35,839 nucleotides of DNA, taken from NCBI GenBank assembly GCA_002898775.1, contig BEHK01000010.1, positions 1 through 35,839 of the forward strand, written 5' to 3'. The position numbers and the translations under genes were made by a program. Below the pieces are notes generated by a model that saw only the letters and a list, made by a program, of their open reading frames with translations, was not told where the DNA came from and searched no databases. How positions within the stretch are numbered: position 1 is the first letter of the stretch; each line of letters starts with the position of its first letter. Source of the DNA: a bacterium HR08 (GTDB taxonomy: Bacteria > Acidobacteriota > Blastocatellia > HR10). Of the stretch, positions 3,173 to 31,194 are shown piece by piece.

Positions 3173-5089
3173 TCACAAGATGATGCGCTCGTTGCCCACG
3201 CGGCGCGTGACGTGTTGGCGATCGAGGTATTCGAGGAGAGGAATGGCATACTTGCGCGACACCCCCGTCAGCTCTTTGAACGTGCCCACATCGAGCCGCT
3301 CGCTGATGGCCTTCCGCGCGCGCACGCGTTCGATAAGCGCGCGAAGGGCTTCAGCCGCGAAGGTGTGCTCGCCCACGCGTACGAGCGCTCCTCGATGAAG
3401 GAGTCGGTGATAGAGCTTGCGCGCCTTCTCGGGATCGAGCTGAAAGTGAGCGATCACCTCTTCCAGGACCGGAGGCTGCCACCCGGCTTGCTCAAAAGCC
3501 TCGAGAAGCTTCCGCTCGATCTCCGCCTCTTCGTCCGAGAGCTGCACGACATGCGTCGCCAAGCGCACCCATTCGCGCTCGGCTCGAAATTCGGGCTCCT
3601 GACACAGTCGCGCCAGAAGCTCTGAGATGACGGACTCCGGGATCTCGCGCGGGAGAAGCGCGCGCGCGTCGCGGCGCGGCATCCCGGGATCCAATGGGTG
3701 CTCGCGATGGAACGCCGCGAGCGCATGCCTGAGCTTCCCCCGCATCGCCTCATAAGCAGCGCGCGACAGGAAATGGCGCGGGGTGCTCGCGATCTCAACG
3801 AGGCGTCCCGCCGCGACGTGGGCGCGCAGAGCGTCTTCGAGCTGAATCGCCGTCAAATCCGTGCGCGCGGCGAGTTCAGGATAACTCCGCCCCCGTTCCC
3901 CGGCCATCTCCACCCAGAGCGCGAGCCGCTCTCGCGCATCCGCGGCCTCCAACCGGAGCCGCGTGGTGATGACCGCTTCTCTCCCTTCGACCGCCGGGCG
4001 AAAGGCCCGGTGCTTCTCCGGCAAAGCATCGAGAATCTCCCCCCCGCCGATGGTGAGCGGCGGCGAATAGCGTCGAACGATGAAACGATCGCCAGGCAGC
4101 GCGAACGTGGGTGTCTCCAAGCGAAATTGAACGAGGCCGGACTCGCCGGGCCGCAGCTCCGCGCGATCCAGCAGGACGACGCGCGCCAGGATCTCGGCCG
4201 TCCCCACATGAAGTCGAAGCCGCGCGCGCGTCTGCAGCGCCTGAGGTGCCGTGGGGAGCAACTCCAGACGGGCGTCAATCAGCGAGGTGGGGACGAAGCG
4301 ACGGCTCGCGACGACGACCTGACCGCGCTCGAGCTCTTCGACAGCGACCCCGTGCAGATTCATCGCCGTCCGTTCTCCGGCCACGGCGACGGAGACGGAG
4401 TGCCCATGCACCTGAAGGCCGCGAATCAGCGCGCGACGCTGGAGGGGGAGGATGTCCACCTCATCGCCCACGGCGAACTGCCCGGCGATCAGCGTCCCCG
4501 TCACGACGGTCCCGAAGCCCTTCACCGTGAAGACGCGATCAATGGGCAAGCGCGGGACGGCTTCGCGTCGCTTCTCGGTGACCGTCGCGGCCACGCGCGC
4601 GAGCGCGTCCTTCAACGCCTCGATCCCTTCCCCGGTGCGCGCGCTGACCCGGACGATGGGTGCTCCCTCCAGAAACGATCCGGCCACGAGCTCGCGCACC
4701 TCCGCCTCGACCAGCTCGAGCATCTCCGCGTCCACCAGATCCGCCTTAGTGATGGCGATCAGCCCGGATTTCACGCGCAAGAGCCGACAGATGTCGAAAT
4801 GCTCGCGCGTCTGCGGCATCACCGATTCATCGGCCGCGACGACCAGCAACACCAGGTCAATCCCATGTGCGCCCGCGAGCATGTTCTTCACGAAGCGCTC
4901 ATGCCCGGGAACATCCACGAATCCGAAGCGCGTCTCCCCGAGCGTGAGGAAGGCGAAGCCGATGTCAATCGTGATCCCTCGCTCCTTCTCCTCCTTCAGC
5001 CGATCCGTATCAATGCCGGTCAGCGCCTTCACCAAAGCCGTCTTGCCGTGATCAATGTGACCGGCGGTGCCGACGATGATATGCCGCAT
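3173..5089 (-). CDS. selB: Selenocysteine-specific translation elongation factor SelB
   Basis: The 638-residue GTPase starts [20 protein letters not shown], containing the G1 loop. It continues with [13 protein letters not shown] (switch I), [15 protein letters not shown] (G3), ITKADL (G4, with Thr in place of Asn as is usual in SelB) and VSARTGEG (G5). Two EF-Tu-like beta-barrel domains follow, then roughly 270 C-terminal residues that fit the SelB winged-helix repeats binding the SECIS RNA hairpin. SelB delivers Sec-tRNA to in-frame UGA codons. A GGGAGG ribosome site lies 8 nt before the ATG. The gene is 64 nt downstream of the LolA-fold gene on the same strand. selA, selC, selD and any obvious selenoprotein gene are absent from the window. 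Confidence 0.95.
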
Positions 5090-17927: not shown

Positions 17928-19225
17928 ACGAGGAGACGACGATGAGGACCGCTCTGGGTCGTGCGCTCGATCGCGAGGCGGAGAAGCTGTTGGCCTGCAT
18001 CCACTGCGGGTTGTGCGTGAGCGCGTGTCCCACGTACCTGCAGCTCGGCGATGAGAATGACTCGCCCCGCGGACGCCTGTATCTCATGCGCGCCGCCGCC
18101 GAAGGGCGCCTGCCGATGACCTCGCGCGCGCTCGCCCACCACATAGACCTCTGTTTGGGCTGCCGGGCGTGCGAGACGGTTTGTCCCTCGGGCGTGCGGT
18201 ATGGACGGCTGCTCGAAGCCGTACGCGCCGATCTCTCGCGCGCGGGGGCGACGCCCGGACTATGGAGCGTGCGATTTCTCCTGAACCACATCTTCACCTC
18301 ACCCACGCGCCTGCATTGGTTCTTCGCACCGGCTCGCTGGCTGCGCCGCCGGGCCTTCGTGCGCCGATGGGCCAAGGGGAAATTCCTGCCGGCGCGCGCG
18401 CGGCTCGCCCTGGAACTGCTGCTGGCGACGACGCCCGAGGAGATGTCCCCTGGCGATGAGCGCCGAATCATCCCGCTCGCCGCATCTGGACGCCGCGCGC
18501 GTCGCGTCGCTTTCTTCGCCGGCTGTGTGGCCCGCGAACTCTTCGCACACACGAATCGCGCGACCATGGACGTCCTCGCCGCTCACGACTGCGAGGTCGA
18601 GGATCCCCCGGATCAGGTGTGTTGCGGGGCGTTGCACGCACATGCCGGGGAAATCGAGACGGCGCGCGCGCTGGCGCGGAGGAACATTCGCGCCTTCGAG
18701 CGCAGCGCGGCCGAAGCTATCGTCGTCAACGTCGCCGGTTGCGGCGCTATGCTCAAAGAGTATGGCGAGCTGCTCGCCGATGATGCGGAGTATGCCGAGC
18801 GCGCCCGCGCCTTCGCCGCGCGCGTGCGCGATGTCTCGGAATATCTGCTCGAGATCGGGTTGCGTCCGGGACCACGCCCGTTGAACCTCACGGTCACCTA
18901 TGACGCGCCGTGCCATCTCTATCATGCGCAACGCGTCAGGACGGCTCCGCTGGAGATGATCCGCCGCCTTCCCGGCCTCACCGTCGTTCCTCTGACCGAA
19001 GCCGAGATGTGCTGCGGGAGCGCTGGGATTTACAACTTGCGCCACCCGGGACTCGCCGATCAGTTGCTCGAGCGGAAGATCGCACACCTTCGCCGAACGG
19101 GGGCGGACGTGCTCCTCACGGGCAATGCCGGATGCCTCATGCACCTGCGTCGTGGTGTGCAGCGCGCCGGTCTCTCGATGCGCGTCCTGCACCCGATTGA
19201 GCTGCTGGCGCTCACGTATGCGTGA
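17924..19225 (+). CDS. glcF: Glycolate oxidase iron-sulfur subunit GlcF
   Basis: The 433-residue product has two 4Fe-4S motifs near the N-terminus, CIHCGLCVSACP and CLGCRACETVCP. Two CCG-type domains follow, seen as FFAGCVARELF, CCGALHAHAGE, GCGAMLKEYG, YDAPCHLYHAQRV and CCGSAGIYN. This is the GlcF layout, shared with LldE and GlpC. It carries electrons from the GlcDE flavins to the quinone pool at the membrane. The ATG overlaps the glcE stop; a second ATG at 17942 with GAGGAG upstream is an alternative start six codons later. The MBL-fold gene follows after 27 nt. Confidence 0.92.
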   Translation: MNEETTMRTALGRALDREAEKLLACIHCGLCVSACPTYLQLGDENDSPRGRLYLMRAAAEGRLPMTSRALAHHIDLCLGCRACETVCPSGVRYGRLLEAVRADLSRAGATPGLWSVRFLLNHIFTSPTRLHWFFAPARWLRRRAFVRRWAKGKFLPARARLALELLLATTPEEMSPGDERRIIPLAASGRRARRVAFFAGCVARELFAHTNRATMDVLAAHDCEVEDPPDQVCCGALHAHAGEIETARALARRNIRAFERSAAEAIVVNVAGCGAMLKEYGELLADDAEYAERARAFAARVRDVSEYLLEIGLRPGPRPLNLTVTYDAPCHLYHAQRVRTAPLEMIRRLPGLTVVPLTEAEMCCGSAGIYNLRHPGLADQLLERKIAHLRRTGADVLLTGNAGCLMHLRRGVQRAGLSMRVLHPIELLALTYA

Positions 19226-19252
19226 GCGCCCTCTGGAAGAGGAGACGATGCG

Positions 19253-20200
19253 GTGAAGATTCATCAGCTCCACATCCCGACGCCCTTTCCCGTCGGTCCG
19301 GTCAACGTCACGTTGCTCCTCGAAGACCCGATCACGCTCGTGGACACCGGGCCGCAGACCGAGGAGGCGTTCGCCGCTTTGCGCGAGCAGATGCGCGCGT
19401 GCGGCGCGCGCGTGGAGGACATCCGTCGGATCGTGCTGACGCATTCGCACGAAGACCATGCGGGTCAAGCGGCGCGATTGCAAGCCCTCTCAGGCGCGAT
19501 CGTCTACGCGCATCCGTGGGAGGCCGATCGTTTGAACCCCGCTTTCGACTACGCGAGCTATCGCCGCTTGCTCGCGGAGCTGGGCGCGCCCGAAGACGTC
19601 ATCGCTCAATTCGAAGCCCTGCGACAAAGGATTCGCAAATTGATCGCCCCAGTATCTGAGGTCGTCGTGCTCGATGAGGGCGACGAACTGACGTTCGAGC
19701 AGGAATCCTGGCGCGTCGTGCATACGCCCGGACACACGCCTGGCCACATCGGCCTCTTCTCCGAGGGCCGACGGCTCTTCATCGCCGGGGACACGGTCCT
19801 GAAGCGCATCACGCCGAATCCGGTGCTGAATCCGGATCCTCGGGATGCGCATCGGCGCTTCCCCGCGCTCCGTCACTTCCTCGCGAGTGTGGATCGGTTG
19901 CGAGAGCTGGCGCCGAGCGCCATCATCACGGGCCACGGAGAGGTGGTCGAGGACATCGAGGCCTATCGGCATGAGATCCATCGCCAGGTGCGACAGCGGC
20001 AGGAGGCCGTGCGGGCCGCTCTCGGCACGCAAACCCTGACACCATGGGAGCTGTCCCTACGCCTCTTCCCCGATACCCGCACCGACCAGCGATTCCTGGC
20101 GCTCTCGGAGACGATCGCGCATCTGGATCTCGCCCTCACCGAGGGCTTGGTCGTGCGCGAGCGACGAGATGGAGTCGAATGTTATCGCGCCCGGCGATGA
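19253..20200 (+). CDS. MBL-fold metallo-hydrolase
   Basis: The 315-residue protein starts at GTG 19253, preceded by AGAGGAG. It shows the metallo-beta-lactamase motifs in order: VLTHSHEDHAGQAARL (HxHxDH), VVHTPGHTPGHIGLFSEG (third-motif His), LFIAGDTVL (Asp) and AIITGHGEVVED (last His). A C-terminal helical part of about 85 residues (QRQEAVRAALGTQTLTPWEL onward) resembles the LACTB2-type winged-helix tail. Related proteins hydrolyse thioesters such as S-lactoylglutathione or act on RNA; the substrate here is unknown. Its position directly after glcDEF suggests a link to 2-hydroxy-acid metabolism, but that is inference from order only. Confidence 0.88.
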   Translation: MKIHQLHIPTPFPVGPVNVTLLLEDPITLVDTGPQTEEAFAALREQMRACGARVEDIRRIVLTHSHEDHAGQAARLQALSGAIVYAHPWEADRLNPAFDYASYRRLLAELGAPEDVIAQFEALRQRIRKLIAPVSEVVVLDEGDELTFEQESWRVVHTPGHTPGHIGLFSEGRRLFIAGDTVLKRITPNPVLNPDPRDAHRRFPALRHFLASVDRLRELAPSAIITGHGEVVEDIEAYRHEIHRQVRQRQEAVRAALGTQTLTPWELSLRLFPDTRTDQRFLALSETIAHLDLALTEGLVVRERRDGVECYRARR

Positions 20201-20215
20201 GCGGCTCCAATCGCC
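20193..20215 (+). other. Stem-loop at the end of the MBL-fold gene
   Basis: GGCGAT (20193-20198) pairs exactly with ATCGCC (20210-20215) around an 11-nt loop that contains the end of the stop codon. No T-run follows, so termination is doubtful. Confidence 0.25.
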
Positions 20216-20247
20216 ATGAGCACCCTCGCGCTCTCGCCCCCATCAGA

Positions 20248-20277
20248 TTGACGTCCTCCTCGTGCTCTCTCTAAAAT
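20248..20277 (+). promoter_or_regulatory. Sigma70-type promoter for the ferredoxin-NADP reductase gene
   Basis: TTGACG and TAAAAT lie 18 bp apart, each matching five of six consensus positions. This is one of the best promoter matches in the window. Predicted transcription starts near 20284, about 80 nt before the ATG. Confidence 0.65.
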
Positions 20278-20364
20278 TTGAGTGCATATGTGCGGAGATG
20301 CGCAGCGACGAGAGCGAGCCTTCTTCGCTCCCCAGGATTCTCACAAAGGGCAAGGAGGACTCAT

Positions 20365-30048: not shown

Positions 30049-31194
30049 ATGCCGAACGGATTGACGCCAGAAGAACGAAGAGAGATCCGCGCTCAACTTG
30101 AGCGAGTGTTCGAGGCTCCCGTCGCCGACGCCTTAGTGGAGGTCCTCGAGCGGCTGGCGGAACGACAGGCGGAGGTCGCCCTTCGCCAGGACATGCGCGC
30201 TCTTTACGGCGCTATTCACGAGTTGGCCACGGCGATAAGAGATCTGCACAAGACCATCGCCCAACTGGCTGAAGCGCAAGCGCGAACAGAGGAGCGGGTC
30301 GGGCGATTGGAAGAAGCCGTCGCCCATCTGATCGAGGCGCAGGCCCGCATGGAGGAGCGAGTTGGGCGGCTGGAGGAGCGGACCGCGCGATTGGAAGAAG
30401 TCGTGGCGCAGCTGGTCGAAGCGCAAGCCCGCATGGAGGAGCGGGTCGGGCGATTGGAAGAAGCCGTCGCCCATCTGATCGAGGCGCAGGCCCGCATGGA
30501 GGAGCGAGTTGGGCGGCTGGAGGAGCGGACCGCGCGATTGGAAGAAGTCGTGGCGCAGCTGGTCGAAGCGCAAGCCCGCATGGAGGAGCGGGTCGGACGG
30601 CTGGAAGAGGCTGTCGTTCGTCTGACCGAAGCGCAGGCGCGGACGGAAGAAGAACTGCGCGCGCTCGCGGCCTCCCATGCGGAAGCGATCAAGCGTCTCG
30701 ATCGGTTAGAACAGATCGTCGCCCAAGTGGTAGAGACGCAGAAGCAGATACTCGACGAACACGTGCACATGCAGAGAGTCTTGCGGCAGCTGGCTCAGCA
30801 GCTCGGTGCGATCAGCGAGACCTTGGGTGCGGATCTGGAGGATATGGCCTATATCGTGCTGCGCGACGTATTGAAGCGAGAGCTGGGATGGGACGTGGAA
30901 CCGCTCGAACGGACGTGGAAGAAGTGGGATGACGAAGTCGAAGAGATCAATATCTTCGGGCGAGCGCGCGATCCAAGGCGCCCCGAAGGCGTGATTTGGA
31001 TTGTGGGCGAAGCTAAATATAACCTGACCGTACGCGAGGTCGAGCAGTTCGCCAAGCTGGTCGAGCGAGCTCGAAAGCATTTGAAAGGAGAAGTCTTCCC
31101 CGTGTGCTTCTGTCGTCGAGCCCGACCGGAAGTGGAGGAGCGCGTGCGGGAGTTGGGTTTTCGTCTCGTGTACTCCTACGGCCGCCTCATTTAG
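30049..31194 (+). CDS. Long coiled-coil protein with C-terminal PD-(D/E)XK-like (DUF3782-type) domain
   Basis: The 381-residue product begins with a short helical head. Residues of about 60-230 form a continuous coiled coil built from repeats such as EAQARMEERVGRLEE. A helical linker (EQIVAQVVETQKQILDEHVH) leads to a C-terminal domain of about 110 residues. That domain reads LGADLEDMAYIVLRDVLKRE, WDDEVEEINIFGRA, VIWIVGEAKYNLTVREVEQF and VFPVCFCRRARPEVEERVRE, the layout of DUF3782-like members of the PD-(D/E)XK nuclease fold. The acidic/Lys pair lies in GEAK, and Glu replaces the usual Asp in EINIFG. The function is unknown. It has its own promoter and a GGGAGAGAGG ribosome site. It contains an exact tandem duplication. 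Confidence 0.75.
   Translation: MPNGLTPEERREIRAQLERVFEAPVADALVEVLERLAERQAEVALRQDMRALYGAIHELATAIRDLHKTIAQLAEAQARTEERVGRLEEAVAHLIEAQARMEERVGRLEERTARLEEVVAQLVEAQARMEERVGRLEEAVAHLIEAQARMEERVGRLEERTARLEEVVAQLVEAQARMEERVGRLEEAVVRLTEAQARTEEELRALAASHAEAIKRLDRLEQIVAQVVETQKQILDEHVHMQRVLRQLAQQLGAISETLGADLEDMAYIVLRDVLKRELGWDVEPLERTWKKWDDEVEEINIFGRARDPRRPEGVIWIVGEAKYNLTVREVEQFAKLVERARKHLKGEVFPVCFCRRARPEVEERVRELGFRLVYSYGRLI
30291..30584 (+). repeat. Exact tandem duplication, 2 x 147 bp, in frame
   Basis: The unit starting GGAGCGGGTCGGGCGATTGG at 30291 recurs at 30438, and by eye the two 147-bp copies are identical base for base. A third, diverged partial copy begins at 30585. The period equals 49 codons (seven heptads), so the reading frame and the coiled-coil register are both kept. 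Perfect identity at synonymous sites indicates a recent duplication or active homogenisation. Confidence 0.9.

Follow-up and report, generated by a model that had tools for sequence, protein, structure and literature searches.

In a member of the Acidobacteriota (bacterium HR08), the coiled-coil stalk of a 381-residue protein has very probably been shaped by expansion and contraction of tandem repeats that preserve the heptad register, under loose constraint on its length. The gene lies in a window of 35,839 nucleotides, contig C10 of a draft genome that is 73% complete and divided into 197 contigs. Blocks would presumably be gained or lost when near-identical cassettes within one gene recombine unequally or when replication slips from one to another. 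All cassettes consist of complete heptads, so each such change would keep both the reading frame and the register and would be tolerated, and tolerated changes would let stalk length drift between species. The exact 147-bp duplication described below would be the most recent of these changes in the present lineage.

Stalk, cassettes and the 147-bp repeat

On one side of the gene lies a UDP-sugar dehydrogenase-like gene and on the other a pilM-like gene; these two neighbours occupy the minus strand and are named from reading their translations. The 381-residue product has a short head, followed by about 224 residues of helix in heptad register and, at the C terminus, by a PD-(D/E)XK-like domain (Table 1). 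In the full-length AlphaFold2 model, one continuous helix spans residues 23-252 with moderate confidence. The protein would form a soluble, presumably oligomeric rod, in which a coiled-coil stalk about 33 nm long joins a small head to a terminal domain of the nuclease type. Matches of the coil to Pfam and NCBIfam models (SMC, DUF1664 and others) reflect coiled-coil composition only, and no Rfam RNA was found within the window.

Table 1. Features of the gene and of its repeat array, in positions of the window.
Feature	Positions	Strand	Basis or remark
Whole gene, 381 aa, stand-alone	30049-31194	+	ORF; same-position orthologues in three congeners, decayed remnant in a fourth
Head at the N terminus (residues 1-35), helical with low confidence	30049-30153	+	AlphaFold2 full-length model; kept in relatives
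Coiled-coil stalk, residues ~36-259, single heptad phase	30154-30825	+	Phase scan; helix in model
Cassette 1, 21 residues (IAQLAEAQARTEERVGRLEEA)	30256-30318	+	
Cassette 2, 28 residues	30319-30402	+	
Cassette 3, 21 residues	30403-30465	+	
Cassette 4, 28 residues	30466-30549	+	DNA identical to cassette 2
Cassette 5, 21 residues	30550-30612	+	4 differences from cassette 3 within the first 60 bp, all towards the 3' end
Full array at period 147 bp: 2.5 copies, 93% matches, without indels	30271-30638	+	Tandem Repeats Finder
Exact 147-bp-period block, 161 identical bases	30289-30596	+	Identity at that period
PD-(D/E)XK-like domain, residues 260-381	30826-31191	+	AlphaFold2 mean pLDDT 86.5; Foldseek
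Motif II, E299-I-N301	30943-30951	+	Alignment A2
Motif III, E321-A-K323 (E-x-K), invariant (24 sequences)	31009-31017	+	Alignments A2, A3

Positions 30291-30437 and 30438-30584 differ at 0 of 147 bases. The first-pass annotation had described these as two identical copies, and the exact run proves longer than it claimed, with identity at this period extending over 161 bp, for which chance is an implausible origin. The third, diverged partial copy that it described is likewise recovered, as the 2.5-copy array, in which the number of copies is that assembled in the draft contig. The repeat unit comprises 49 codons (28+21 residues), in frame with the ORF, and is itself composed of smaller cassettes that run 21, 28, 21, 28 and 21 residues along the array. 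Glutamine occupies a core "a" position in every cassette (30256-30612) and T or M the next "d" position (QAR[T/M]EER), forming a regular polar layer at 21- or 28-residue intervals. A phase scan found one heptad phase kept across the array, in agreement with the earlier suggestion that a unit of this size leaves the register unbroken. That the unit is an exact multiple of the heptad is no independent signal, since the cassettes are already 7n and unequal exchange among them can only produce steps of 7n.

The constant C-terminal part of the gene differs from that of the nearest congener (G002) at 31 of 543 bp (5.7%), with 16 of 86 fourfold sites changed. Because the repeat has 0 differences in 161 bp, the 147-bp duplication, or a conversion resembling one, is dated by sequence divergence as younger than the split from G002; conversion between adjacent units could imitate a recent duplication. 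The G002 orthologue has repeats of its own, with periods of 84 and 231 bp. The host genome, whose paralogues were read from selected stretches, contains several further array genes with a similar coil and different terminal domains. Exact repeats of at least 40 bp, reaching 266 bp, are present in 13 of the 14 array genes or gene parts scanned, and their periods are always multiples of 21 bp. Different paralogues have only stretches of about 10-28 bp in common, and exchange between paralogues was therefore rejected; homogenisation is local to each gene. One paralogue of 590 aa carries the same terminal domain (minus strand, G000:C20 ~18505-20300, within L014, G000:C20:15500-23500), and its array is built of 35-residue units with exact identity up to 209 bp.

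Exact and recent within-gene repeats in so many paralogues are also consistent with a contingency locus akin to phase variation, in which the repeat is kept unstable and stalk length shifts fast within a population. However, every observed change keeps the frame, there is no on/off switch and no surface signal was noted, making this explanation extremely improbable.

Length variation among congeners

Congeneric Acidobacteriota carry orthologues at this locus, between neighbouring genes that the congeners have in common on both sides; the orthologues are 332 aa (G004), 381 aa (the present gene) and 430 aa (G002, the HRbin10 genome) in length. Their cassettes total 70, 119 and 168 residues, respectively, in steps of exactly 49, and are ordered 21-21-28, 21-28-21-28-21 and 21-21-28-21-28-28-21. 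The equality of these differences is partly fortuitous, because different mixtures of 21 and 28 sum to them. The G001 orthologue, which has an assembly gap of 100 N inside the array, was left out of this count. In G003 (contig C4), the gene has been lost, and a decayed C-terminal remnant lies between the same neighbours (L065, ~4200-4500). Alignment of the relatives and counting of their units exclude a single copy number common to all, and the variation in coil length that had been expected between strains is observed between species of one genus, in whole heptads. Close relatives include HRbin10 and JZ-3.bins.73 (Acidobacteriota) and one further relative named Blastocatellia. The bins HRbin10 and JZ-3.bins.73 presumably come from hot springs.

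The stalk had also been proposed to act as a molecular ruler between head and nuclease-like domain; on this view, its length would set how far apart the two stand and would be under selection in each lineage. A single continuous helix in heptad register, to which 49 residues add about 7.3 nm, is compatible with this role, and coiled-coil rulers do exist, but coiled coils acting as spacers or rulers conserve their length (PMC5082667). Here, length is what changes: the orthologues of a single genus are 49 or 98 residues apart in length, relatives sharing the terminal domain range from about 230 to 590 residues in total length, and the loss from one congener indicates that the gene is dispensable. 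A ruler is therefore very unlikely, and the variability of length suggests that stalk length is near-neutral.

The register rule extends beyond the orthologues. In 33 array ORFs, from paralogues as well as distant relatives, the distance from one AQxRxE-type anchor to the next is 0 mod 7 in 154 of 164 cases and 4 mod 7 in the other 10, and never 1, 2, 3, 5 or 6 mod 7. Coiled coils are known to tolerate a +4 offset, classically called a "stutter". Since multiples of 7 follow from cassette sizes of 7n, the heptad rule by itself is no proof of selection; the 4 mod 7 offsets are a better hint of selection on register, although they probably trace back to only a small number of events, most of them within a single group of relatives.

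Copy number at the locus is provisional, because related arrays repeatedly break assemblies. An assembler may have passed through the repeat one time too many or too few, so that the true number of 147-bp units differs from that in the contig: the 161-bp exact repeat exceeds usual assembly word sizes, the gap in the G001 orthologue falls inside the array, and the two parts of one paralogue in the host genome lie on contigs C158 and C68, with 143 bp of array present on both. In addition, 8 of 23 relatives' contigs start no more than 600 bp upstream of the domain, where 0.94 would be expected (P ~8e-7, for a 600-bp limit set after the data were seen). Against an artefact, the arrays of the congeners have diverged independently, follow the same cassette logic and are 49 residues shorter and longer than the present one, and conserved synteny continues on either side within the contig. 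As the congeners have related, diverged arrays, the variation in length is independent of the present contig, and an artefact is unlikely. The G002 orthologue (L071) of the split paralogue at the contig ends C68/C158 (L016 2-1084, L020) is intact, at 429 aa.

The terminal domain and its relation to DUF3782

The first-pass annotation had called for a structural check of the C-terminal domain, and prediction with AlphaFold2, built with 24 sequences, recovered the PD-(D/E)XK core fold. Its Foldseek matches in the PDB are EndoMS/NucS, MspJI, Card1, Can2, SSO0001 and BamHI, the top matches being PD-(D/E)XK enzymes. EndoMS/NucS, MspJI, Card1 and Can2 (PDB 5gkj, 5gke, 2vld, 4f0p, 6xl1, 8q3y) have this fold in common with the predicted domain (Foldseek E 4e-4 to 1e-2), but TM-scores are modest (0.36-0.49 by query), identity is 10-17% and their partner domains are different. 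Sequence searches of the PDB found no homologue of solved structure.

The (D/E)-x-K of motif III is present, while the acidic metal ligand of motif II, an aspartate in the superfamily, is replaced here by N301 (30949-30951). Asparagine stands at this position in 17 of 24 sequences and aspartate in 7, and E299, two residues ahead, is invariant (alignment A2). Since the motif II aspartate is replaced by asparagine, catalysis is uncertain, and the protein is filed as nuclease-like by fold rather than as an active nuclease; judged from these residues, the proteins possibly form an inactive or altered nuclease subgroup. The predicted fold makes nucleic acid the most likely target of the domain.

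The protein is related to Pfam DUF3782 (PF12644), though below the cut-off. Against a gathering score of 24.4 bits, it reaches 17.5 bits, or 21.5 in the genome search, and the G004 orthologue reaches 23.4 bits; the sub-threshold match sits at the junction of stalk and domain. DUF3782 comprises coiled-coil PD-(D/E)XK proteins of bacteria and Crenarchaeota, in which, as in the present protein, an N-terminal coiled-coil stalk precedes a PD-(D/E)XK-type domain (Hartmann et al., 2016; PMC4786415). The stalk here differs in being made of 21- and 28-residue cassettes, and the present subgroup differs in its motif II asparagine. The register is heptad with no nonads seen, as also reported for bacterial members of DUF3782 (PMC4786415). 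Several relatives have an ATREDI/ATKTDV-like motif at the junction of head and stalk (alignment A3, columns 44-53), where the present protein has ALRQDM (~30172-30201). The motif of the relatives resembles the beta-layer consensus of the DUF3782 paper (PMC4786415) and may mark a trimeric stalk. No relative was found in the viral collection searched, leaving a phage origin unsupported, and assignment to a defence system was dropped, as PADLOC returned nothing beyond a weak coiled-coil match to ZorA.

Precedents and significance

Register-preserving change of repeat number in this stalk introduces no new mechanism but belongs to a type of repeat-length evolution that is already known, with precedents for heptad steps in Mycoplasma pneumoniae DUF16 and in the tails of chicken BG proteins (PMC3472980; PMC5938342). 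In DUF16/RepMP1, likewise a large paralogous coiled-coil family that gains and loses whole heptads, 21-nt tandem repeats add or remove heptads between strains, for which slippage and unequal crossover have been proposed (PMC3472980). Its sequence and terminal domains are unrelated to those described here, its steps are 7 or 14 residues rather than 21-49, and its variation is known between strains rather than between species of one genus. Chicken BG cytoplasmic tails have whole-heptad polymorphism of coiled-coil length in common with the present stalk, but belong to a eukaryotic membrane receptor and are encoded by separate 21-nt exons (PMC5938342). The natural coiled-coil linkers between sensor and effector in phytochrome-diguanylate cyclases are alike in falling into few length classes, mostly multiples of 7 with one main offset; unlike the present stalk, they are short and under strong selection for length, and their offset is -4 (3 mod 7) rather than +4 (PMC9587094).

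On a more far-reaching reading, which is considered rather improbable, these proteins would form a family of nuclease-like rods widespread in bacteria; stalk length could vary freely in register-keeping steps (7n or 7n+4) and no others, would evolve rapidly, perhaps with functional consequences, and would be adjusted through tandem duplications affecting many paralogues within a single genome. The arrays are also a warning that copy numbers of such repeats are unreliable in metagenome-assembled genomes. The orthologues of 332, 381 and 430 aa represent a clean natural series, with exact seven-heptad steps and a constant enzyme-like domain, that is convenient for asking whether the length of a coiled coil matters and how register filters insertions and deletions.
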